From positions 2,577,501-2,641,500 of the forward strand of contig NZ_CP137624.1 of the NCBI RefSeq assembly GCF_033880585.1: a DNA stretch of 64,000 nucleotides. Direction: 5' to 3'. Below, piece after piece: positions 9,042-35,150 of this stretch. This DNA comes from Lysinibacillus louembei. GTDB lineage: Bacteria; Bacillota; Bacilli; Bacillales_A; Planococcaceae. A program made the translations under genes and the position numbers. The notes under the pieces are model-generated. The model ran no database searches. It worked only from the letters and a program-made list of their open reading frames with translations, and had not been told where the DNA came from. How positions within the stretch are numbered: the stretch's first letter is position 1; each line of letters opens with the position of its first letter.

Positions 9042-12002
9042 ATGGCTAACATGAAAAAAACATGGATTATCATCTTATGCTCAGCGTTACTTTTAGCAGG
9101 GTGGCTTCCATTAGCAGCTCCAGCGAATGCAGCGCCATCCATTTCGGATGTTGATAAAAATAGTGAAAAATATACAGCAGCGCAATGGGCCGTTGACCAA
9201 AAATTAGTTCAGCTTTCGGGAAGTAAGTTCCAGCCTAACGTTCTTGTAACAGAGCAGCAAATGCTACAAATGATTGCACAGCTTGATAAAAATTATCATT
9301 TCAGTTATGCACATGATATGGTGTACACATATTATGCCGATTTAAACATGCCGATTTATGGGGCAAATAATATGGGACGCCGCACTGCTAATGCAACGAG
9401 AGGGCAATTTGCTCGTCTATATGCGGCAATGAATAGCCTTGATTTATCAGAAGTGCAGGCAGTTCAATATTTATATACACATGAAATTACAAAAGGTTTA
9501 ACAGGTAAGAAAACGTTTGATGATTATGCAGCAACAAAGGCGATTACACGTGGTGACCTTGTGACATTTTTATATCGTGCAGCAAAAAGTGGTGGCATTG
9601 CAATTGAAGGCTTAAGCGCAGCACCGTCTGGTAAGGACGACAGCAAAGTAACATTGCCATTAAATTTTGTTAGCTCAAACGGTACAGTAGAATTAAAGCC
9701 ACCTTCAGATAAGAAGGAAAATGATAAATCTAATAATCCGAGCGCTTTTAAAGCCGTACAAAGCATTAATGTGGAAAAAGAGGAATTAGCAGCAAATGGC
9801 TTGGATGCAACAGCTATTCAAATACTATTAAAAGATAGCTATGGCAATGACATTCCATATGATACGACATTGCAATTTAAAGTAACATCAAAGGTTGGAG
9901 CTCGCATCGTCGAATCACCACCGACATCAGGCTCAAAGCCAGAGAAAAATGCAGGCAGTAGCACAACAACGATTTTCACTGATGGTGGTGAATTAAATGC
10001 ATACATTATTGCACCAACATTAACAAAATCAGAAAAAGATTTAATTACATTTGAGCTTGTTAATAATAATGAAACAAAATTTGCCAGCTATCGCAATCAG
10101 CGCATCGAAGTGGAATTGCGCTATGTACCAAAAGCGGAAGTGCGCATTTCCTACGAAGTATATGATCCAGACCAGCCAAATGGTGGTGGCAGTGTCACAC
10201 CAGGTCCAAAGCCATTACCAGCATTACCGGTAGGGAAAGTGGATGGCAGTACAGTACAAACAGTGCCATTTACACCGAATGGTATTATTGAAATCCGTGA
10301 CTATGATACAGATGAATTAACATTTGATGGATTTAAATGGGAAAACTATACGAATTCATCAGGTCAAATTGTTAATGGTCGTGTTCGAGACGATGCGATC
10401 CAATATGGAAATGCAGAGCTACGCATGGATAATCAGCTTATTTCTGTATGGTTATTTGAACAAATTATAGAGCGCATGATTGATGAGTATGGAAGAGTAA
10501 ATGCCTACTATACCATTAATAGCGAAGGTCGCGCGGTTTATAATTTACAAGATGTAATGGATGAGAGTTTTACAAGTCAATTTGAATCAAAAATCCATGC
10601 ATTAATTGTTCATTTACTAACGTATTTCCCTAGAAACACAAATGATTTAACGATGGTTCACTATGACAGTGTAAAAGCAGTTAAGGCAATCTTTGATTCT
10701 TTAAGCAAGGCAGATCAAGATTATTTAGCGAAAAACTATAAAGATACAGTCGGGAATTTAAGTGGCTATAATGCAAAGGTAGACAGCTTAAAGGAAAGCC
10801 AAGAAATTGTGGAGCGTCCTGAAGGAATGGAGCGCTACACGAAAGTGATTGTTAATTTAGTAGCACCGGGTGGACGTGTCATTACGGACTATAAAGGAAC
10901 AGCGGAAATTGAATTTAATGGACAACGTAAAGTTGTGTCATTCAATACAAACACGACAGATTATAATAAAGGAACGGGCTATGCAGGCTCAGCTGTTGGT
11001 TATTTTGATTCCATTGTCTATGGCTCATCAACAGCGACAGCAACATTGGTTTCATCTAATATTGATCCACGTTATCGCGAGATGTTTAGAGAGATCATTG
11101 GCGTGCCAACAAAGCAAAAAATCTTTACAAACTTTAAATTTACAAAAAACAAATGTACGCTTGCAACGGAAATAGCCTTCATTGTTGACCAATCGAGCTC
11201 AATGCGTAAACAAGATCCAAATAATTTTACAGCGGACAAAACAAAGCAGTTGATTCGTCAAATTGGTTCGAATAACAATATCGTTGTTCCGTTTGCTGCA
11301 AATCCAGGCTCAGTTGTAAAAGGTACAGCAACAAATATTGCCAATATGGAAGGCTTTATCTCCTATGATAAGCTGTCATCACGCAATACCAACATGGCAC
11401 AAGCAGTACAGGCAGCACTTAACAACTATACAACAGACGATAAAGTTGCCAAGTCGATGGTATTGATTACAGATGGTAAAACATCGAATGCGCAGGTAGA
11501 GCGCATTATTGATAGTGCGAAAAAAGCAAAAATACAAATTCATACGATTGCTGTTGGACCAGCGAAAGATGTTAACACAGCAATCTTGAAAAAAATTGCT
11601 TCTGAAACAGGTGGTCAAAGCTATCATGCGACAGATGCAGAACGTTTGCACAGTGCATATCAAGCAGTAATTGATGCGATTTTATGTCAAACATTCGTAT
11701 CAGATGCAAGCTGTGATACGAGCGCAGGTTTATTCAACGCTGCAACAGTCGATGTCACACGTTCAACAGTCATTATGACAGCTGAATTAAATGAAAACTG
11801 TACAAATGTAGCATCTGTACAAGTACGTTTTACCTCTGTTAACGGTGATGTCAACTACGACTTAATTGATCGTGGGCAAAATGTTTTCAAAGTAAGCCAA
11901 TCAATTCGCAAATTTAATCGTTTTGATTTGTATAATGAAGTCATCTTCCGTGCATTTGACCAAAATGGTAATTTAATCACAGATAAAGAAGTGAAGCTAT
12001 AA
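9042..12002 (+). CDS. Large exported VWA-domain surface protein
   Basis: A 986-residue protein with a signal peptide (MKKTWIIILCSALLLAGW, cleavage near ANAA-PS). Residues about 40-185 resemble degenerate SLH repeats (TAAQWAVDQKLVQLSG, ATRGQFARLYAAM, AITRGDLVTFLYRAA). An invasin/Ig-like module follows (INVEKEELAANGLDATAIQI) and then a proline linker. The VWA domain starts near 710 with the MIDAS motif DQSSS at 716-720, NTNM for the conserved Thr, and ITDGK. A beta-domain ends the chain. VWA-MIDAS domains bind protein ligands through a metal, so adhesion is a reasonable inference. RBS GGAGGGGG lies just before ATG 9042. Confidence 0.85.
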   Translation: MANMKKTWIIILCSALLLAGWLPLAAPANAAPSISDVDKNSEKYTAAQWAVDQKLVQLSGSKFQPNVLVTEQQMLQMIAQLDKNYHFSYAHDMVYTYYADLNMPIYGANNMGRRTANATRGQFARLYAAMNSLDLSEVQAVQYLYTHEITKGLTGKKTFDDYAATKAITRGDLVTFLYRAAKSGGIAIEGLSAAPSGKDDSKVTLPLNFVSSNGTVELKPPSDKKENDKSNNPSAFKAVQSINVEKEELAANGLDATAIQILLKDSYGNDIPYDTTLQFKVTSKVGARIVESPPTSGSKPEKNAGSSTTTIFTDGGELNAYIIAPTLTKSEKDLITFELVNNNETKFASYRNQRIEVELRYVPKAEVRISYEVYDPDQPNGGGSVTPGPKPLPALPVGKVDGSTVQTVPFTPNGIIEIRDYDTDELTFDGFKWENYTNSSGQIVNGRVRDDAIQYGNAELRMDNQLISVWLFEQIIERMIDEYGRVNAYYTINSEGRAVYNLQDVMDESFTSQFESKIHALIVHLLTYFPRNTNDLTMVHYDSVKAVKAIFDSLSKADQDYLAKNYKDTVGNLSGYNAKVDSLKESQEIVERPEGMERYTKVIVNLVAPGGRVITDYKGTAEIEFNGQRKVVSFNTNTTDYNKGTGYAGSAVGYFDSIVYGSSTATATLVSSNIDPRYREMFREIIGVPTKQKIFTNFKFTKNKCTLATEIAFIVDQSSSMRKQDPNNFTADKTKQLIRQIGSNNNIVVPFAANPGSVVKGTATNIANMEGFISYDKLSSRNTNMAQAVQAALNNYTTDDKVAKSMVLITDGKTSNAQVERIIDSAKKAKIQIHTIAVGPAKDVNTAILKKIASETGGQSYHATDAERLHSAYQAVIDAILCQTFVSDASCDTSAGLFNAATVDVTRSTVIMTAELNENCTNVASVQVRFTSVNGDVNYDLIDRGQNVFKVSQSIRKFNRFDLYNEVIFRAFDQNGNLITDKEVKL

Positions 12003-12008
12003 AAATAA

Positions 12009-12060
12009 GGCTGTCAGAAAGGTAGGCAAGTGCGCTACTTTTTGACAGCCATTTGTTTTG
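12009..12060 (+). terminator. Terminator after the surface-protein operon
   Basis: A long hairpin pairs GGCTGTCAGAAAGGTAG (12009-12025) with CTACTTTTTGACAGCC (12035-12050), then ATTTGTTTTG. It separates this operon from the convergent ABC ATPase gene and may serve both. It belongs to the look-alike hairpin family described in the findings. Confidence 0.8.
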
Positions 12061-12076
12061 TATAGTTAATATCTAT

Positions 12077-12745
12077 TCAATCTACCTGCACTAATTGTTT
12101 GTCAATTAGCTTGTATGTATAATCGCTAAGTTGCGCTGCTTCTTTATCACGTGTGGCCATAATAATCGTTTGTCCCTGATTTCGATAAAATGATAATAAA
12201 TTTAATACTTCATAACATGCCTTTGCATCTAAATAGGCTGTTGGCTCATCAATAATAAGGACACTCGGATTACCAAGGAGCGCACGAGCAATTGCTACGC
12301 GGTATTTTTCTTCTGACGATAAATCTTCAGGAAAGCATTCAAATAATTCAGCATGAATGCCAGCTTGCTGTAATAAGGTTAACGCTTTCGGATATAATGT
12401 TTTTCTCGGCTCATCATGAATAAATGGTAAAATCACATTATCCATTATGGAATAATGCGGTAGGAACTTAAAGTTTTGATAGACAAAGCCAATATGTTTT
12501 CGGCGATAATTACTTCGAGCTTTATCGCTTAATTGATAAATTTGTATATTATCATATAATACCTCTCCAATAGTTGGCGCTAGTAGTCCTGCGACACAAC
12601 CTAAAAATATTGTTTTTCCTGTACCGGCATCACCAATAATTGTGTACCATTTTCCTTTTTCAATCGTTAACGAGATATTATGTAAAATATTTGCCTGACT
12701 TGCTGGAGTAATAAAGGACTTGCAAAGGTTGCGAATTTCAATCAT
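12077..12745 (-). CDS. Orphan ABC transporter ATP-binding protein with altered motifs
   Basis: A 222-residue nucleotide-binding subunit resembling the FtsE/LolD/MacB class. Walker A is GDAGTGKT (38-45) in place of the usual GxSGSGKS/T; the Q-loop glutamine is Q90; the signature is DLSSEEKYRVA (141-151) instead of LSGGQ; Walker B and D-loop (VLIIDEPTAYLD, 162-173) are normal; the H-loop position reads ATRD, Arg199 in place of His. No permease gene is next to it. Transport ATPase activity may therefore be weak or lost; the role is unknown. RBS GAGGTAA precedes the start. It is divergent from the comX locus across a repeat-rich intergenic region. Confidence 0.8.
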   Translation of the reverse strand: MIEIRNLCKSFITPASQANILHNISLTIEKGKWYTIIGDAGTGKTIFLGCVAGLLAPTIGEVLYDNIQIYQLSDKARSNYRRKHIGFVYQNFKFLPHYSIMDNVILPFIHDEPRKTLYPKALTLLQQAGIHAELFECFPEDLSSEEKYRVAIARALLGNPSVLIIDEPTAYLDAKACYEVLNLLSFYRNQGQTIIMATRDKEAAQLSDYTYKLIDKQLVQVD

Positions 12746-12867
12746 GATATTTACCTCAATTGTAATGTGATTTTTGATAGAATTATTTTTCCTATCAAAT
12801 AGCTGCGTTTTGAAGGGTATATATTCTCCATGCTACTTTTAGCATAGCATGAATATTTAATTGATAA

Positions 12868-12949
12868 ACCGACAATATTCCGCCAGCATACCGACTTTAT
12901 ACCGACAGGCACCGACATTTTTCTGTCGGTAACCGACAATATCCCGCCA
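12868..12949. promoter_or_regulatory. ACCGAC repeat array, probable operator in the divergent ABC/comX region
   Basis: Six copies of ACCGAC(A) fall in 82 bp: direct copies at 12868, 12890, 12901, 12911 and 12932 and one inverted copy at 12924-12930. The copies at 12911 and 12924 form a 7-bp inverted repeat around TTTTC(T). The outer copies belong to an 18-bp near-identical direct repeat (ACCGACAATATTCCGCCA, 12868-12885, and 12932-12949 with one change). The 10-11 and 22-bp spacing is about one and two helical turns, as for same-face protein binding. A ComA-like regulator is the obvious candidate, but the sequence is not the B. subtilis ComA box (TTGCGGnnnnCCGCAA). Confidence 0.6.
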
Positions 12950-12981
12950 AATTGCCAAAAAATAAAAAATATCTATATACA

Positions 12982-13010
12982 TTGTCATAAAATTCGCTAA
13001 AATAATAAAT
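12982..13010 (+). promoter_or_regulatory. Candidate promoter upstream of the comX locus
   Basis: TTGTCA at 12982-12987 and ATAAAT at 13005-13010 are separated by 17 bp, with alternative AT-rich -10 matches nearby. The site lies just downstream of the ACCGAC array, the geometry expected of an activator-dependent promoter. The motif itself is weak. Confidence 0.35.
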
Positions 13011-13027
13011 GAGAAGAGGTTAACACA

Positions 13028-13270
13028 ATGCAAGAGAATATCAAGCTAGCATAGCCCTATTAAAAGCAGTGTAGGAAAAAAATAGTCGCTTTAGAAAATA
13101 GTTTTAATGAGTAATTAGTAGCATTGATGCATAAGTTTATGATATGGCAGCAACGATAAAGCTTTTTAATTTTAGCTTTTGATATTGTTGATGTTTTATT
13201 GCAATCTATCGAAAGCATATGACAGCTTCTCATATAAAAACATACTTACTAAAAATGATGAAATGAGGCG
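13028..13270 (+). pseudogene. Possible decayed comQ remnant
   Basis: comQ, the isoprenyltransferase that modifies and processes ComX, normally lies immediately upstream of comX. Here ATG 13028 has an RBS (AGAGG, 13015-13019) but stops after 8 codons. An overlapping frame reads AREYQASIALLKAV, stop, EKNSRFRK, and later RKHMTASHIKTYLLKMMK. The helix-like pieces with frameshifts and stops would suit the C-terminal part of an isoprenyl-synthase-fold protein after large deletions. There is no recognisable DDxxD motif. The identification rests mainly on position; it could equally be ordinary non-coding leader. Confidence 0.28.
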
Positions 13271-13278
13271 GATTAATT

Positions 13279-13437
13279 ATGATGAAAATGATTCAATTTT
13301 TACGCGACAACATGGATATTGCAAAATTATTACATGAAGGAAAAGTATCATTAGTAGGTGTTACAGCACAGGAGCAAGCAGCAATTATGGAAGCTTTTGA
13401 GAAGGAGATACATTCTGATACGATGTATTGGAAATAA
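13279..13437 (+). CDS. comX: ComX-like quorum-sensing pheromone precursor
   Basis: A 52-residue peptide with no signal peptide, starting at ATG 13279 (GAGGCGG at 13265-13271, 7-nt spacing). It lines up with B. subtilis ComX as I know it: an N-terminal FLRDNMDIAKLL segment (ComX YFLNYPEALKKL), then SLVGVTAQEQAAIMEAF (ComX CLIGFDVQETETIIKAY), and a tryptophan next to the C-terminus (W51 of 52). In ComX a near-terminal Trp is the isoprenylated residue of the mature pheromone. The stop is 3 nt before comP, so translation is coupled. No intact comQ adjoins it, so how it is modified is open. The mature peptide would be about 6-10 C-terminal residues (EIHSDTMYWK region). Confidence 0.82.
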   Translation: MMKMIQFLRDNMDIAKLLHEGKVSLVGVTAQEQAAIMEAFEKEIHSDTMYWK

Positions 13438-13440
13438 AAA

Positions 13441-15660
13441 ATGAAAAAGCACTATTTTATTTTTCTACTATATGTAGGGATTGCTATTTATTTATCTATT
13501 GTCGCTTATCATAAACCTTTAATTAAAATAGAGCTTCAGCAGCAAAATGAGCAATGGGCTGTTGAAGCTCCATATTATTCACAATGGGCAGCAGAGCAAG
13601 GCATTGAAGCAGGAGATATTATTTTAAATGTTGATAATATGCCCGTTAGTGAAATATCCTCAACTCTATATATTCATTCTATAAGAGCTGCAAATGAGCT
13701 GACGACTCAAAAGCAGGACGGTACAATAAGGAAGATTGAAATATTACATAAAGATTTGCCTGTGCAATTTTATTTACACGTTATCTTACCAATTATTTAT
13801 TTTGTTTTATCTTTAGGAGCAGGCTTTTATCTATACAAAAGACAAAAAGATATTGCCAGCATGAAATGGCTGATTCTCTTTATTTTAACAATCGCATTAG
13901 CTTATTTAAGCAGCACAGCTTCTAGTAAACTTAATCTTCTAGGTGGTATTATAACAAATGGAGGAATTCTTCTTGCTCCATTAGTATTATTGCAATTTTT
14001 GCAAAACTATTATCGTTATTTACATATTAAGTGGACATTTATACAGCGCATTGAAATGTTATACATATTACCAGTAATAGGTGCTGTACTAGGTGGTGTT
14101 GAAATAGTCTATCCATTTTTAAGAAATACTACTTCTTTAATTATATTAACAACATCATTCTTACTCTTCGCTTGTTCATTATGGATATTACTACACGGCT
14201 ATTATAAAACACGCATGATACAATTACGCTTATTAATTTTAAGCGTAATTTTGCCGTTTTTACCATTCTTATTGTTATTTGTCGTGCCTGAAGTAATTAG
14301 ACAACGCCCAATTCTAGAGGCAGAATACAGTATATTATTTGTTCTTTTAATTCCATTTTGTTTTATGTTTTTACGTGTGTCAGAGCGCTTATTTGATATT
14401 CATTACTATATTACACGAACAAGCTATTATTTAGTCGTGACATCTGCTTTAACGATATGGCTGTGGCTAGGGCTATATTTCTTAATGGACAATGTGCCAA
14501 ATGGAATACTTGTTGTTTTTTTATTTATTTTCATTTTGCTATTTTTCTATATAAAAGAAAAAGTAGATGCGAAATATCGAGATATATTATTTACGCCAAA
14601 GGGGAATACGATACGGCAGCTATCCAAAGTAATTGATCAAATGAGCATTGCTTATCGCGTAGAGGTGTTGCTTTCCATTTTAAAGGAGGAGGCAGCTAAG
14701 CATTTAGAAATTCAAAATATCAAGATTGTGAATAATGATGGAAGTAGCAGACCTGCTGAATGTGTTATGACAGATGAACAAATGCAGCAGCTGCATGCCG
14801 GAGAAATTATCAAGTTATCTAATGTATATGTAGCGCTTATTCATCAAGAGGCACGTATGCAAAGGCTATTACTTATTGAACATCAAGGAACAATCCGCTT
14901 AAAGGATGAAGAGCTTCTATGGCTAAAGCTTTTGTTGAAATATGCAGGAAGTGCTATTGAAAGCTTGAAAAAAATTGAAGAGCTATTGAGAGAATTGCAA
15001 AGCTTACAGCAAACAGCGGAGCAGGAGCCTATTTGGTTAAAGAAGCTCGTATGGCTAAAAGTAGAGCAGGAAAAATATTATGTAGCACAAGAGCTGCATG
15101 ATACAGTATTACAAAATTTAACACACCTCACACGTGAAATAGGCTTGTTAGTAGAAGATGAAACAGCCGTTTCAGCACAAGAGCTGTATGAGCAAATGCA
15201 TAATAATGTGCAGGATTTACGAGCCTATTGTGAGACATTGAAACCACCTGTATTAGACAAATTTGGTTTAACAGCAGCATTAAGTCAATTAGCCCAACAA
15301 GTAAGCAACAAAGCAAAATTCAAATTATGTACAACCTTTGAGCGTGTTTATTTACAGCATGAACAGCTACCTTTAGTCATTTATCGCATTGTACAGGAGC
15401 TGCTGAATAATGCCTTAAAGCATTCTGACGCAACAAAGGTAACACTTTCTTTACAGGAATTAGATGAAGGCTTTGAATTAATCTATGAGGATGATGGAAT
15501 GGGCTGTGAGCTGGAACAAATGCTACAAACGGACTCTCTAGGTATAAGAGGGATTAAAGAACGAGTAGAGGCATTTAATGGCTATTGTCGTATCGAGGCA
15601 AATGTAAATGAAGGTGTATTTATTCATATTATCATAGAAGGGTCTGTGGAAGATGATTAA
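13441..15660 (+). CDS. comP: ComP-like membrane sensor histidine kinase
   Basis: A 739-residue kinase with the ComP plan: TM1 (about 5-25), an exported PDZ-like loop (WAAEQGIEAGDIILNVDNMP), about seven to nine further TM segments to residue ~375, a GAF-like linker, and a HisKA_3/HATPase_c transmitter. The phospho-acceptor is His553 in AQELHDTVLQNL, preceded by PIWLKKLVW, which closely follows B. subtilis ComP (PIWLKKLMF). The N-box is NNALKHS at 656-662, the G-boxes EDDGMG and GIRGIKERV. It should bind the modified ComX outside the cell and phosphorylate the ComA-like regulator whose start overlaps its last 8 nt. Confidence 0.9.
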   Translation: MKKHYFIFLLYVGIAIYLSIVAYHKPLIKIELQQQNEQWAVEAPYYSQWAAEQGIEAGDIILNVDNMPVSEISSTLYIHSIRAANELTTQKQDGTIRKIEILHKDLPVQFYLHVILPIIYFVLSLGAGFYLYKRQKDIASMKWLILFILTIALAYLSSTASSKLNLLGGIITNGGILLAPLVLLQFLQNYYRYLHIKWTFIQRIEMLYILPVIGAVLGGVEIVYPFLRNTTSLIILTTSFLLFACSLWILLHGYYKTRMIQLRLLILSVILPFLPFLLLFVVPEVIRQRPILEAEYSILFVLLIPFCFMFLRVSERLFDIHYYITRTSYYLVVTSALTIWLWLGLYFLMDNVPNGILVVFLFIFILLFFYIKEKVDAKYRDILFTPKGNTIRQLSKVIDQMSIAYRVEVLLSILKEEAAKHLEIQNIKIVNNDGSSRPAECVMTDEQMQQLHAGEIIKLSNVYVALIHQEARMQRLLLIEHQGTIRLKDEELLWLKLLLKYAGSAIESLKKIEELLRELQSLQQTAEQEPIWLKKLVWLKVEQEKYYVAQELHDTVLQNLTHLTREIGLLVEDETAVSAQELYEQMHNNVQDLRAYCETLKPPVLDKFGLTAALSQLAQQVSNKAKFKLCTTFERVYLQHEQLPLVIYRIVQELLNNALKHSDATKVTLSLQELDEGFELIYEDDGMGCELEQMLQTDSLGIRGIKERVEAFNGYCRIEANVNEGVFIHIIIEGSVEDD

Positions 15661-16258
15661 GGTGCTTATTGTAGATGACCATCCAATCGTGCTGGAAGGG
15701 TCAAAGCGATTAATGGAATCAGCTGACGATATTCATATCGATACAGAATTACAGGCGACAAACGTCGTGCATCAATTAGCTGAAAATGACTATGATGTTT
15801 ATTTACTTGATGTGAATTTAGGGGAATCTGATGGTATTACTTTAGCGCAGCAAATTAAAGAGCACACAAAGGCACGTGTCATTTTATATACGGGGGATGA
15901 CCCGACAAATTATTATTCACTTATTGTTGAAAAGAGGGTGGATGGGGTCGTGTCAAAAATGGCAACGCGCTTTCAAGTAATTCAAACAATTCGCGCGGCA
16001 ATGCAAGGACTTATGTTAATACCAACAGATTTTCTCGATTACATTCATTTTAGTCGAGACGATATTGAATTGACAGCTAAGGAGAAAATGCTTCTTTCTT
16101 GGCTACAAGAAGGGTTAACAAATAAAGAAATGGCAGTAAAGCTGCATACATCTGTTCGTACAATTGAGCGTTATTGGTCACAGCTGTTTCAAGTGTTAGG
16201 TGCGACATCGCGCGAAGCGGTGCTTGACATTATTAAGGAGCAACGACTTTTAGAGTGA
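15653..16258 (+). CDS. comA: ComA-like response regulator (NarL/LuxR type)
   Basis: A 201-residue two-domain regulator. The receiver has the acidic pair VDDH (8-10 region), phospho-acceptor Asp53 in YLLDVNLG, the T/S position in LYTGDD and the conserved Lys in VVSKMA. The C-terminal LuxR-type helix-turn-helix runs from about 136 (ELTAKEKMLLSWLQEGLTNK, then TSVRTIERYWSQLFQVLG). In B. subtilis ComA~P activates srfA and competence. No srfA lies here, so its targets are unknown; the ACCGAC array upstream of the locus is a natural first candidate. Confidence 0.88.
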   Translation: MIKVLIVDDHPIVLEGSKRLMESADDIHIDTELQATNVVHQLAENDYDVYLLDVNLGESDGITLAQQIKEHTKARVILYTGDDPTNYYSLIVEKRVDGVVSKMATRFQVIQTIRAAMQGLMLIPTDFLDYIHFSRDDIELTAKEKMLLSWLQEGLTNKEMAVKLHTSVRTIERYWSQLFQVLGATSREAVLDIIKEQRLLE

Positions 16259-16302
16259 GAAGAGATTCAAAAATTTTATCATGTACCGGGGCATAACGAT
16301 AG

Positions 16303-16331
16303 TATAATAGAAGTAGTCACTATCAAGTGAC
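16303..16331 (+). promoter_or_regulatory. Candidate promoter with inverted-repeat operator after comA
   Basis: TATAAT at 16303-16308 is followed by a perfect inverted repeat GTCACT-ATCA-AGTGAC at 16316-16331, which would cover the start-site region. No strong -35 is seen. It lies between comA and a 33-codon ORF with a good RBS. Confidence 0.4.
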
Positions 16332-16401
16332 GTGCTATGCGGTTACATAAAAATGAAATGGCGCCAAAATAGATAAATCTATAAGGAAAGGAGTATAGGT
16401 G

Positions 16402-16503
16402 ATGCAGGAGAAGAATGAAGAAATGGAAAAACAATTTAACTTTCATTCATTAAAAATTATGCAACTTGAGCATGATTTTAAGCTGCATTTACTCGCACAT
16501 TAA
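16402..16503 (+). CDS. Small unrecognised ORF (33 residues) downstream of comA
   Basis: ATG 16402 has GGAAAGGAG at 16385-16393 with 8-nt spacing, and the frame ends with TAA at 16501. The peptide begins MQEKNEEMEKQFNFHSL and ends KLHLLAH; it is charged, probably one helix, and has no signal or TM segment. It has its own candidate promoter and a strong terminator, so it looks like a genuine transcription unit. I know no family for it; it could be a sporulation-type regulatory or signalling peptide. Function unknown. Confidence 0.5.
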   Translation: MQEKNEEMEKQFNFHSLKIMQLEHDFKLHLLAH

Positions 16504-16514
16504 AGCGAAAAATT

Positions 16515-16558
16515 AGCTGTTAAAGAAGGGGGAACAACTGCTTCTTTAGCAGCTTTTT
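16515..16558 (+). terminator. Terminator after the 33-codon ORF
   Basis: AGCTGTTAAAGAAG (16515-16528) pairs with CTTCTTTAGCAGCT (16541-16554) with one G.U pair, followed by TTTTT. It isolates the small ORF from hemA. Confidence 0.85.
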
Positions 16559-16675
16559 ATGTTAAGAGCATTGAAAAAGCGTAAAAAATTTGTTAAGCTT
16601 ACATTAGAATGATTCTAAAATAGTAATTGTGTTCATAGCATGTTCACAAACAAGTAATGAAATTGCGTATATTTA

Positions 16676-16684
16676 TGGTACAAT
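16676..16684 (+). promoter_or_regulatory. Extended -10 promoter for the hem operon
   Basis: TGGTACAAT at 16676-16684 is an extended -10 (TGn followed by TACAAT), 38 bases before the hemA start. No good -35 is seen, which is acceptable for an extended -10 promoter. Confidence 0.5.
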
Positions 16685-16722
16685 TAAAAATATGAATTAG
16701 AACGTGTGAGGTGTGGGGGTTC

Positions 16723-18060
16723 ATGCATACATTGGTCGTAGGCTTGAATTATAAAACAGCGCCAGTAGAAATTCGTGAAAAGCTATCGTTTATTGAGAGC
16801 GAAATACCGAATGCCATGGAGGCGCTACAACAACAAAAGAGCATTTTAGAAAATGTAATTGTATCAACATGTAATCGTACAGAAATTTACGCGGTTGTTG
16901 ATCAATTGCATACAGGACGTTATTATATTAAACGTTTTTTAGCAGAATGGTTTCATCTTTCAACTGAACAATTTGAAGCACATTTATTTATTCATGAAGA
17001 GCAAGAGGCAATTCAGCACTTATTTAAAGTAACAGCTGGGATTGATTCGATGATTCTTGGTGAAACGCAAATTTTAGGGCAAGTGAGAAAAAGCTTTTTA
17101 CAAGGGCAAGAGCTTGCGACAACGGGTACGATATTTAACCAATTGTTCAAGCAAGCCGTAACGTTTGCGAAGCGTGCACATAATGAAACAGCTATTGGAG
17201 AAAACGCTGTTTCTGTATCGTATGCGGCTGTGGAGCTTGCAAAGAAAATCTTTGGTTCATTAAAGAAAACCCATGTGGCGATTTTAGGCGCAGGGAAAAT
17301 GGGCGAGTTAGCGATTCAAAATTTATATGGCAATGGTGTAGGAAAAGTAACGGTTATTAACCGTACATTTGAAAAAGCACAAGATTTAGCAGTGAAGTTT
17401 GAAGGTCAGGCTAAATCGATGCAAGAATTGCAATGCATGTTGTTGGAAGCAGATATTTTAATTAGCTCGACAGGCTCAACAAATTATGTTATTGATTATG
17501 AGCTAATGCAATATGTGGCACGTATGCGCAAAGGGCAGCCATTATTTATGGTTGATATTGCTGTGCCGCGTGATTTAGATCCTCGCATTGCGGATTTACC
17601 AAATGTCTTCTTATATGATATCGATGATTTGCAAGGCATTGTGGAAGCGAATTTGGCAGAGCGTGAGAAGGCGGCTGCTGAAATTACGCATATGATTGGT
17701 TATGAAGTCACAGAGTTTAAAGCATGGTTAGCGACATTAGGTGTAGTACCTGTCATTTCGGCATTACGTAAAAAAGCGAGTCGCATTCAAGAGGAAACGA
17801 TGCTAAGCATTGAGAATAAAATGCCTGATTTAACAGAGCGTGAGCGCAAAATTTTAAGCAAGCATACAAAATCAATTATTAACCAGCTATTGAAAGAGCC
17901 AATTTTGCAAGCAAAGGAAATGGCGAATTCTTCAAAAGCGAATGAGCAATTGCAATTATTCCAAGCAATCTTTGGTATTGAAGATGATGTGCAGCATGAA
18001 ATGGTAACACCATATGAAAGCAAAGCACAGGTTCAGCCAAAGCTGGCATTCGAATCTTAA
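16723..18060 (+). CDS. hemA: Glutamyl-tRNA reductase
   Basis: NADPH-dependent reduction of glutamyl-tRNA to glutamate-1-semialdehyde, the first committed step of haem synthesis by the C5 pathway. The 445-residue protein has the catalytic Cys50 in [12 protein letters not shown], the [12 protein letters not shown] substrate motif and an NADPH Rossmann fold beginning [12 protein letters not shown], then a dimerisation helix. The frame opens earlier (GTG 16711), but ATG 16723 gives the standard [16 protein letters not shown] start with GAGGTG 9 nt upstream. It is first gene of hemAXCDBL. Confidence 0.96.
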
Positions 18061-32450: not shown

Positions 32451-35150
32451 GTGCGCGTTGTTCCTAGACAATCTGCATAGTAATATGCAATAAAACTAGG
32501 CAAAGATATCTATCTTTGAACTTTACACTCGAATAGGTGGGTGAAATTCCAACTCATCGTTAAATGTTGGTAACGGTGCTCTGAGACTCCGACATGCATA
32601 ATCGGTTAACTACTTTTGTGTATGAAGCTCGGTAAAGACGCTGAAAAACGGACCTGCGAAGTGGTTAGTGAAGTAAGCGGGAGGCTATAAAACTGTCATG
32701 CTGACTCACCAGGAATCCTCGTATGTACGGCTCGTAAAGACAGAGGGAAACAAAATGAAGTTTCTCACTTCTGTAAAAGAAGTTTAATCGTGGATTTTGT
32801 ATTTGTGGTTGCAAAATCTACACTACTCCTACAAAGGAATAGTGTCTTGCGTCCTTCCAACAGTGGGCAAAAAGATGATTAACGGGTTAAAGAGGACAGC
32901 TAAAACAGTTATGAAAAGCTAAAGTGTAAGGAACAACGGAACCATAGAAGATGATGGTAAGAGGAGTTAACCTCAAAGCATCTAAATTGGAGGAAATGCC
33001 AATTGAATCTATGGGGCAGCAGCCCGTAGTAGTTTTGAAGTTTCTGTAATGGAAATGGAGCGAAGGGGCATAGTCAGTTTGATTATTAAAATTAAATCAA
33101 CTTGTTAGGGAAGCCGTTTGAGCATACCTGATTAAAACCTTGCATTCTCCCATAAGGAGGAATCGCAATGGAACAAAAATCTAACTATCTAAAATCAGAA
33201 CAAGAATTAAGAGTTAAACAGGACGAATTATACAATAAAACCATTGAAGGTTTACAACAAAATGGTCAAGCCCCAAGTCATAAGGATTTATTGGAATTGA
33301 TGGCAAGCGAAGCAACAATACTTACGGCTATCCACCGCATTAAAGCAAATAAAGGAAGTCGTACTGCTGGAAGTGACCATAAACTGATGAAGCCTGATAT
33401 CTTACAAGCGGATTACCCCAAAGTTATACAATCCGTACAAGAAAGCCTTCGATATTATCGTCCAAAACCAATAAAAAGAAAGTACATTCCAAAAGCCAAC
33501 TCCAAAGAATTACGTCCTTTAGGCATACCTAGCATTATAGACAGGGTTGTTCAAGAATGTGTAAGACTGATTACGGAACCTATTCTAGAAGCTCAATTTT
33601 TCCAACACTCATATGGATTTAGACCTATGCGTGATTCAAGCATGGCCTCTGTTCGAATAACGGATATTGTCCATATTACGGGTCACTATTGGGTAATTGA
33701 GGGAGACATTAGTAACTTCTTCGATTGCGTTAACCATACAGTTTTGATTAAAAAACTATGGAATATGGGAATCAGGGACAGACGTGTGCTAATGATTATT
33801 AAGGCAATGCTAAAAGCAGGAATCATGGGAGAATTGAAAGAAAACCCAATTGGAACACCTCAAGGGGGAATAATTTCCCCATTACTAGCGAATGTTTACC
33901 TTCATTCATTTGACCAATGGGTGACTAGAGAATGGGAAAATAAGAAAACACAATATCCGTACGCACACAAATATAAACAGTTTGATAGATTACGGAAAAC
34001 AACACATTTGAAAGAAACATACCTTGTGCGATATGCAGACGATTGGGTACTCATCACTAGCTCAAAACGTAATGCGGAAAAATGGAAGTACAGAATTACA
34101 AAATATTTAAAAGAGCGATTAAAACTAGCATTATCCGAACAAAAAACGCTCATAACAGATATTAGAAGACGACCAATAAAATTTCTCGGCTTTGAAATCA
34201 AGGCGATCAAAGGAAAAGCGAAAAATAACCACATACTCGTTAGTAAACCAAATCAAAAGCGATTGGAAGAAAAGGTAAAAGAGATTCATAAAACCATTAA
34301 GAAAATCAAAGGCGCAACCAAGAAAGATGATTTGATTCATTGGATCAATCTTATTAACTCCAAGATAAGAGGGCTCATTCAATACTATGAATGTACAACT
34401 CAAGTAAACGTGTATTTACACAAGTATGCAGACAAACTTCATTATGCGGCTTACTTAAAACTACAGAAACATGGTGGTTATAAGTTGCCTGCGAAACAAG
34501 TGGACAATTTACAGTCAGTACACGAGAAGTACAGTACTAAAATACCGGTAATAGAATATAACGATTTGAAAATTGGTGTAACTAGGTTGGATTTCTGCAC
34601 GTGGCAAAAAGCTAAAAACAAAAGTCCTAAAGAAACACCATACACCGAACAAGGACGACAGATTTATATGAATAGGACTGGTAAAAAACCTGTAAAAGTA
34701 AGAGCTGATGAGCTACTTAGTTTGAATTGGTCTAAGATAATCAGAATCGGACATAAAGAAAAATTATACAACTTTGAATATTTTATGAATCGTGCCTATA
34801 CTTTTAATCGAGATAAAGGAAGATGTCGAGTATGTAAAGAGGTGTTACAGGGGGATGATATCTATATACACCATATCAGCCCAAAACTACCTCTTGATGA
34901 AGTGAATCGTGTTCCAAATCTTGCTTCTATGCATGAAAGTTGTCACCAGATGATACACAGTTCGAAAGATTACTCATCGGTCGGGAAGAAAAAGTGGGAA
35001 AAAATTCTTGGTTTTAGAGAAAAGTTGAATTTAGTTTAATAATTAGATTGATGGAACGCCGTATGAGGTGAAAGTCTCACGTACGGTGTGAAGTGGGGGA
35101 AAAGAGTTCCTAGCGAGTAATGTCGAGGTTGTCTCTTACCTATCACTATT
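32451..35150 (+). mobile_element. Group II intron inserted in radC
   Basis: A 2700-bp element beginning GTGCGCG (bacterial group II 5' consensus GUGYG) and ending CACTAT (AY end). About 700 bases of structured RNA (domains I-III) precede the encoded protein. Domain V is recognisable at about 35053-35090 (CGCCGTATGAG, GTGAAAGT, CTCACGTACGGTG), followed by a domain VI stem to 35150. Excision joins radC exactly in frame. Encoding a protein with reverse transcriptase, maturase and HNH domains, it should be a mobile retroelement able to home to radC. Confidence 0.93.
33168..35039 (+). CDS. Group II intron reverse transcriptase/maturase with HNH endonuclease (LtrA-like)
   Basis: A 623-residue intron-encoded protein sited in domain IV. 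Reverse transcriptase blocks are visible: ELRPLGIPSIIDRVVQE, YGFRPMRDSS, EGDISNFFDCVNH, GTPQGGIISPLLANVYL and the catalytic YADD at 289-292. The maturase X domain covers about 370-470. The C-terminal HNH nuclease has CRVCK, IHHISP and ESCHQMIHS. All catalytic residues look intact, so splicing and target-primed insertion are plausible. AAGGAGG at 33153-33159 precedes ATG 33168. Confidence 0.95.
   Translation: MEQKSNYLKSEQELRVKQDELYNKTIEGLQQNGQAPSHKDLLELMASEATILTAIHRIKANKGSRTAGSDHKLMKPDILQADYPKVIQSVQESLRYYRPKPIKRKYIPKANSKELRPLGIPSIIDRVVQECVRLITEPILEAQFFQHSYGFRPMRDSSMASVRITDIVHITGHYWVIEGDISNFFDCVNHTVLIKKLWNMGIRDRRVLMIIKAMLKAGIMGELKENPIGTPQGGIISPLLANVYLHSFDQWVTREWENKKTQYPYAHKYKQFDRLRKTTHLKETYLVRYADDWVLITSSKRNAEKWKYRITKYLKERLKLALSEQKTLITDIRRRPIKFLGFEIKAIKGKAKNNHILVSKPNQKRLEEKVKEIHKTIKKIKGATKKDDLIHWINLINSKIRGLIQYYECTTQVNVYLHKYADKLHYAAYLKLQKHGGYKLPAKQVDNLQSVHEKYSTKIPVIEYNDLKIGVTRLDFCTWQKAKNKSPKETPYTEQGRQIYMNRTGKKPVKVRADELLSLNWSKIIRIGHKEKLYNFEYFMNRAYTFNRDKGRCRVCKEVLQGDDIYIHHISPKLPLDEVNRVPNLASMHESCHQMIHSSKDYSSVGKKKWEKILGFREKLNLV

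Follow-up and report, generated by a model that had tools for sequence, protein, structure and literature searches.

In Bacillus subtilis, comQ, comX, comP and comA form one cassette that gives each strain one matched signal and receptor. Can a ComX pheromone still be modified when the comQ beside its gene has been lost? A comX-comP-comA locus of Lysinibacillus louembei (comXPA-A) raises this question. It lies in a stretch of 64,000 nucleotides (contig NZ_CP137624.1, positions 2,577,501 to 2,641,500 of the forward strand), here called the window, whose first letter is position 1 (Table 1). The comQ of this locus, comQ-A, is a remnant, and the sole intact comQ of the genome, comQ-B, stands at another place. 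Judging from the sequences analysed, ComX-A is probably prenylated in trans by ComQ-B, so that comXPA-A and comQ-B would make up one system spread over two places.

A ComX-ComP-ComA locus with a decayed comQ

The open reading frame (ORF) comX-A encodes a protein that matched the Pfam ComX family (PF05952) over residues 2-51 with 39.9 bits (expect value, E, 3.8e-10; cut-off 25), and comX was found above the cut-off at this position, locus A, in each of the five genomes covered for the genus of the window genome (Metasolibacillus), two of them from one species. A chance ORF is ruled out by this match and by the conservation in relatives. An NCBIfam search with the 52-residue protein gave no family at E 10. 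The precursor thus identified has its tryptophan at residue 51 of 52. A sequence-only reading of the window had proposed a ComX with a tryptophan next to its C-terminus, and both proposals hold.

The two genes downstream encode the expected partners. ComP-A is a multi-pass kinase for which a simple hydropathy scan gave ten segments, the first at residues 3-29, followed by a loop to residue 104 and nine more. HisKA_3 and HATPase_c were matched above the Pfam cut-off, PDZ matches in the first loop fell below it, and the PIWLKKL...ELHDTVLQ block was present; topology, PDZ-like loop and block were the features for which the kinase had been called ComP-like. We built a tree from 98 kinase domains of comX loci and six HisKA_3 kinases of the same genome, with B. 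subtilis ComP absent; comP exceeded 600 codons at 100 of the 108 comX loci surveyed below, and two without a recognisable H box were left out. The ComPs and the six paralogs parted at a support of 0.983, and ComP-A formed a clade (support 1.0) with the ComP of a full comQXPA locus in a related genome (G068) and the three other comQ-less ComPs of the genus, a grouping that rules out a non-ComP kinase. A ComP with 97% identity occurs in NZ_JAMBIZ010000027.1, a Metasolibacillus metagenome-assembled genome (MAG). ComA-A is a regulator with Response_reg and GerE domains encoded next to comP-A; a PDB sequence search with ComA returned nine sequences, all of them other two-component regulators. The locus is a genuine ComX-ComP-ComA system with its own receptor and regulator.

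The sensor end is the variable end of ComP: two genomes of the same species differ at 23 residues, and 18 of these lie in residues 1-120. The ComX end, EIHSDTMYWK, is identical in the same two genomes, and there is therefore no matched change of signal and receptor as in a new pherotype. Of the pherotype pattern that the earlier reading suggested looking for across relatives, the variable receptor end is seen and the matching change in ComX is not.

The sequence-only reading was right about ComX, ComP and ComA, and it overlooked that comQ, the gene for the tryptophan prenyltransferase, is missing, which bears on the function of the locus. Directly upstream of comX-A we found a remnant that has suffered large deletions and carries a nonsense codon. 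Positions 13076-13198 correspond to ComQ residues 13-83 (tblastn E 7e-5) and positions 13219-13263 to residues 282-296 (tblastn E 0.80, weak alone but in place before comX), with the old stop codon at 13264-13266; the stretch 13133-13198 has 81.8% blastn identity to the intact locus of G068. Remnants occur in four of the five genomes of the genus (G000, which is the window genome, G065, G066 and G067), and G068 has a full comQ-comX-comP-comA at this site before hemA. The nonsense codon (CAA to TAA, 13112-13114) is common to G000, G066 and G067 and is not in G065 or G068, a distribution from which we conclude that comQ-A most likely disappeared before the branching of G067, with a separate loss in G065.

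Despite this loss, the reading frames of comX-A, comP-A and comA-A stay open. Compared with G067, the window genome showed ratios of nonsynonymous to synonymous divergence (dN/dS) of 0.16 for comP-A and 0.054 for comA-A. In comX-A, the 127 nonsynonymous sites had 15.7 changes and the 29 synonymous sites 13.3, giving dN/dS 0.19 and a synonymous divergence (dS) of 0.73; the one-sided binomial test for purifying selection (p = 0.001) rests on these 29 changes and is weak for so short a gene. That the short ORF is conserved and shows purifying selection, the opposite of what would have refuted the earlier reading, also bears on a rival explanation, in which the locus either is a relic in decay or serves only to listen, no active pheromone being made and ComP-A answering the signals of neighbours. 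The decay of comQ-A would fit this, as would the damage to a second com locus in G066 and G067 and the deletion of most of it in G000 (see below). We nevertheless consider it unlikely, as comX-A has remained intact long after comQ-A was lost, and the region upstream of the operon and the start of comX are alike in all five genomes.

A solitary comQ at a second com locus

The window genome, a single contig of 3.96 Mb, contains one ComX above the cut-off (the sole other PF05952 match reached 11.5 bits, E 1.16), one ComQ in a search with a ComQ alignment, and three Pfam polyprenyl synthetases. ComQ-B combines DDLQD at residue 84 with NDIHD at residue 203, the DDxxD and NDxxx or GDxxx pair expected of a ComQ; according to the excerpted text of a review, the second motif must be NDxxx or GDxxx (PMC5331326). 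The two further polyprenyl synthetases leave room for the explanation that one of them modifies ComX-A and that ComQ-B is kept for a different substrate. This is very improbable, for both carry DDILD at the second site, a motif called unsuitable for tryptophan prenylation in the same excerpt, and the genome offers no other ComX above the cut-off as a substrate.

comQ-B belongs to a second com locus (locus B, in the glmU-prs neighbourhood), which each of the five genomes of the genus has, always with an intact comQ-B. All four com genes are present in G065, where comX-B scores 23.1 bits and so falls under the cut-off, and in G068. G067 has a damaged comX-B (18.8 bits), for which no start codon was found, and a comP-B truncated at its start, and in G066 an intact comX-B is followed by a split comP-B and a comA-B cut short; as these sequences come from a MAG (G066) and a draft assembly (G067), the lesions could partly be assembly errors. 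In the single contig of G000, likeness to the relatives stops about 40 bases beyond the end of comQ-B. Apart from the initial codons of comX-B, the genes comX-B, comP-B and comA-B are gone. G000 thus keeps X, P and A once each at locus A and a single Q at locus B.

Between G000 and G066, which is listed under the same species, comQ-B shows 6 nonsynonymous and 19 synonymous changes (dN/dS 0.07). When the changes were polarised, the G000 branch received 3 nonsynonymous and 9 synonymous ones and the G066 branch 2 and 4, while 2 and 5 could not be assigned; purifying selection on the G000 branch was significant (p = 5e-5).

A dyad, AATTGCRTRATTCC, lies ahead of comQ-B (G000:C1:919220-919262, locus L049) and is similar in most genomes of the genus. 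It had 18 genome matches at up to one mismatch, compared with one in the reversed control, and the genes near three other sites of this dyad showed no common theme.

comX genes without a neighbouring comQ

We searched 261 genomes of the family with PF05952 at E 0.01, which gave matches in 64. Four weak matches (G002, G006, G180 and G211; 18.1-20.9 bits, all lying within frames 507-509 codons long) were dropped, and the set kept comprised 60 genomes with 108 comX loci, nine of them under the Pfam cut-off (eight with an adjoining comQ and one, G039:C87, without). ComQ was searched with an alignment (A1, five rows) at E 1e-25. An order-level genome search covered the same 261 genomes and added nothing. 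ComX and ComQ were found in the same 60 genomes, the ComQ matches in G193 and G252 being partial.

A comQ lies within 2.5 kb upstream on the same strand of 70 of the 108 comX genes, including a tandem second comX in G060. The other 38, in 31 genomes, are four comXPA loci of Metasolibacillus, one comXPA in G039 and 33 comX-comP pairs of a genus designated g8 that have neither comQ nor comA, here called satellites. Tryptophan is second or third from the end in all 38 comQ-less ComX proteins and in 65 of the 70 comQ-linked ones; in the remaining five, the last tryptophan is fourth, sixth or tenth from the end. Across the 33 satellites, by comparison, the three columns before the tryptophan and the two after it have a conservation of 0.42-0.50. 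These counts speak to the explanation that ComX-A works unprenylated, the locus having switched to an unmodified peptide signal after the loss of comQ. The disappearance of comQ-A while comX-A, comP-A and comA-A were kept is what such a switch would leave behind. It is improbable all the same, given that the tryptophan is retained without exception between such variable columns, that comQ-B is kept alone in G000, and that a comQ is retained in all 60 genomes with ComX.

Eight comQ matches had no comX detected nearby. At five of them comP and comA adjoin, so that comX was probably just undetected; a further match, G252:C21, is a fragment on a different contig. The remaining two, in G000 and G043, were counted as truly without comX at the site. 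At the canonical site of G043 (L164, G043:C3:57500-68500), the middle pair, comX and comP, is absent and comQ leads directly into comA, and the sole detected comX of this genome, together with a comP, is on another contig.

Proposed two-locus system

The identities of the genes, the decay of comQ-A, the solitary intact comQ-B, the signs of selection on both partners and the retained tryptophan all argue for the split system, in which prenylation in trans would be followed by export, receptor binding and promoter control. ComX-A would be made at locus A and prenylated at Trp51 by ComQ-B. The processed pheromone would leave the cell and bind the membrane part of ComP-A, which would phosphorylate ComA-A, and ComA-A would act on promoters with CCG(A/C)CA half-sites, its own promoter included.

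Several points weigh against this proposal. ComQ-B shares only about 40% identity with the ComQ-A still intact in G068, and its cross-recognition of ComX-A is therefore not a given; comQ-B could be kept for another reason. The agreement between ComX and ComQ in 60 of 60 genomes overstates the evidence because genomes of one genus do not count as independent samples. Selection tests have low power for the 52 codons of comX-A, and the G000 branch of comQ-B comprises 12 polarised changes, some of which may be older than the deletion of comXPA-B. The dS of comQ-B between G000 and G066 (0.118) is also tenfold that of hemA (0.011), suggesting that the comQ-B locus may have recombined.

Table 1. Features of the proposed split com system. 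Positions are those of the window, except for comQ-B, which is placed on the genome contig.
Feature	Position	Strand	Description
comX-A	13279-13437	+	52-aa pheromone precursor, Trp51 adjoining the C-terminus; Pfam PF05952
comP-A	13441-15660	+	739-aa receptor histidine kinase; HisKA_3 and HATPase_c, PDZ-like first loop
comA-A	15653-16258	+	201-aa response regulator, Response_reg and GerE (LuxR-type); 8-base overlap with the end of comP
comQ-A remnant	about 13076-13266	+	pieces matching ComQ; limits approximate
CCG(A/C)CA half-site array	12869-12949	+	half-sites usually 11 bases from one another, surrounding the dyad TGTCGGTAACCGACA; putative operator of the com operon
comQ-B	G000:C1:918209-919114		sole intact comQ of the genome; about 1.67 Mb from comX-A

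Region upstream of the operon and neighbouring genes

The stretch that is alike in all five genomes includes the half-site array and its dyad, and we propose the array as a putative operator of ComA-A. The dyad, TGTCGGTAACCGACA, was matched at a single genome position when up to two mismatches were allowed (reversed control, one match), and the tandem half-site pattern has five genome matches, two of them at the com locus (reversed control, one). The array is conspicuous at the com locus, but each control likewise gave one match, and these patterns allowed no regulon to be built. In G066, a second copy of the array precedes a divergent gene for a predicted small, secreted-looking protein. A scan for promoters gave 6 sites where 4.8 were expected, which is uninformative, and a search of positions 12000-17000 against Rfam gave no matches at the gathering score.

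Beside comXPA-A, a divergent ATP-binding cassette (ABC) ATPase is encoded at 12077-12745, which matches the models TIGR03608 (bacteriocin export ATPase), LolD and FtsE, all below the cut-off. On the corresponding side of its com locus, G068 (L056 3553-8251) has two ORFs resembling ABC ATPases, a permease of 811 aa whose FtsX match stays below the threshold, and a small protein that looks secreted. Farther along the window, the ORF at 33168-35039, preceded by a radC-like ORF and followed by an mreB-like one, presumably encodes a group II intron reverse transcriptase, possibly of an intron inside radC. The names hemA, glmU, prs, radC and mreB are our own presumptive assignments, made from the protein sequences.

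comX-comP satellites in a related genus

The 33 satellites are spread over 26 g8 genomes, with up to five in G038 (L076, L077, L084, L086, L087, L090, L095, L101 and similar loci are examples), and carry 31 different 11-residue ComX C-terminal ends. A search with 54 ComA queries taken from linked loci, to which g8 contributed 35, gave no match at E 0.01 at any satellite, over at least 2.4 kb before and at least 4.4 kb after comX, compared with matches at 38 of 40 comQ-linked g8 loci. The two exceptions are the second loci of G047 (L159) and G053 (L158), where comQ-comX is present and neither comP nor comA was seen in the surveyed stretch. The satellite ComP exceeds 600 residues in 29 of 33 cases, and all 29 have the H box AQELHDTxLQEQ. 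In the other four comP is broken, in two (G038) by inserted ORFs that we take for transposases. Compared with the core ComP of the same genome (29 rows, being 28 satellites and G039), mean identity was 43% over the first 120 residues and 74% over the 75 residues around the H box.

This genus is very probably Lysinibacillus, because the neighbours of its core locus match those in plasmid pMGMM7 of L. fusiformis, whose comX is 98% identical to the core comX of G032. That one ComQ, together with one ComA in the Lysinibacillus-like genomes, serves several pheromone-receptor pairs per cell is a reading to which we give even odds. If it is true, the satellites would allow one strain to produce and sense several pherotypes with a shared ComQ and a shared ComA, and the comXPA of the window with its distant comQ would be the two-locus form of the same sharing.

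Relation to known com systems

Compared with the B. subtilis comQXPA, the window has the same order of ComX, ComP and ComA on one strand, a tryptophan near the ComX C-terminus, a HisKA_3 kinase and a variable ComP sensor end; unlike it, the window has a comQ remnant, and the sole intact comQ lies about 1.67 Mb off with no adjoining comX.

Systems of this kind outside the Bacillus core, where the earlier reading placed a distinct pherotype, are already known: comQXPA-like loci outside B. subtilis, Lysinibacillus among them, and their variability were reported in 2014, according to the sections of Dogsa et al. that we draw on (PMC4008528). The same sections describe non-B. subtilis-like loci of the kind seen in the window, six of 14 species of that clade sharing the comP-comA overlap, and two com loci per genome in two Lysinibacillus species. 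The loci set out there are four-gene arrangements, some with an unusual comX, and no comQ-less comX or lone comX-comP appears in those sections. Among the open-licence PMC matches listed, a scope outside which subscription journals and preprints fall, there was no description of comQ-less comX loci or of comX-comP satellites.

The plasmid pMGMM7 of L. fusiformis MGMM7 (NZ_CP130332) likewise has com genes split over two places on one replicon. As annotated, it differs from the window in separating comQ-comX from comP-comA, about 70 kb apart, rather than comQ from comXPA. Its comQ-comX lies at 76-77 kb and its comP-comA at 146.6-149.4 kb (NZ_CP130332.1; L183 and L184), and no comX was found beside that comP. 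A comQXPA region with Lysinibacillus-like neighbours also occurs in CP031730.1 (L185), labelled as a Stenotrophomonas rhizophila plasmid, with which CP065518.1, carrying the same label, is grouped; these records are probably mislabelled or contaminant.

Significance

In the window genome the modifying enzyme has been uncoupled from its substrate, apparently through complementary gene loss between two com loci. The review excerpt cited above credits ComQ with a broad substrate tolerance, reports that the ComQ of strain RO-E-2 accepts a tryptophan second to fourth from the C-terminus, and states that a consensus for ComX recognition by ComQ seems not to exist (PMC5331326). The window genome (XPA + Q) and G043 (XP + QA) provide natural test cases for this recognition. 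Should ComQ act in trans, a single enzyme could handle several pheromones and a strain could gain further signal-receptor pairs without acquiring another comQ; surveys that require four adjacent genes would then undercount such systems.

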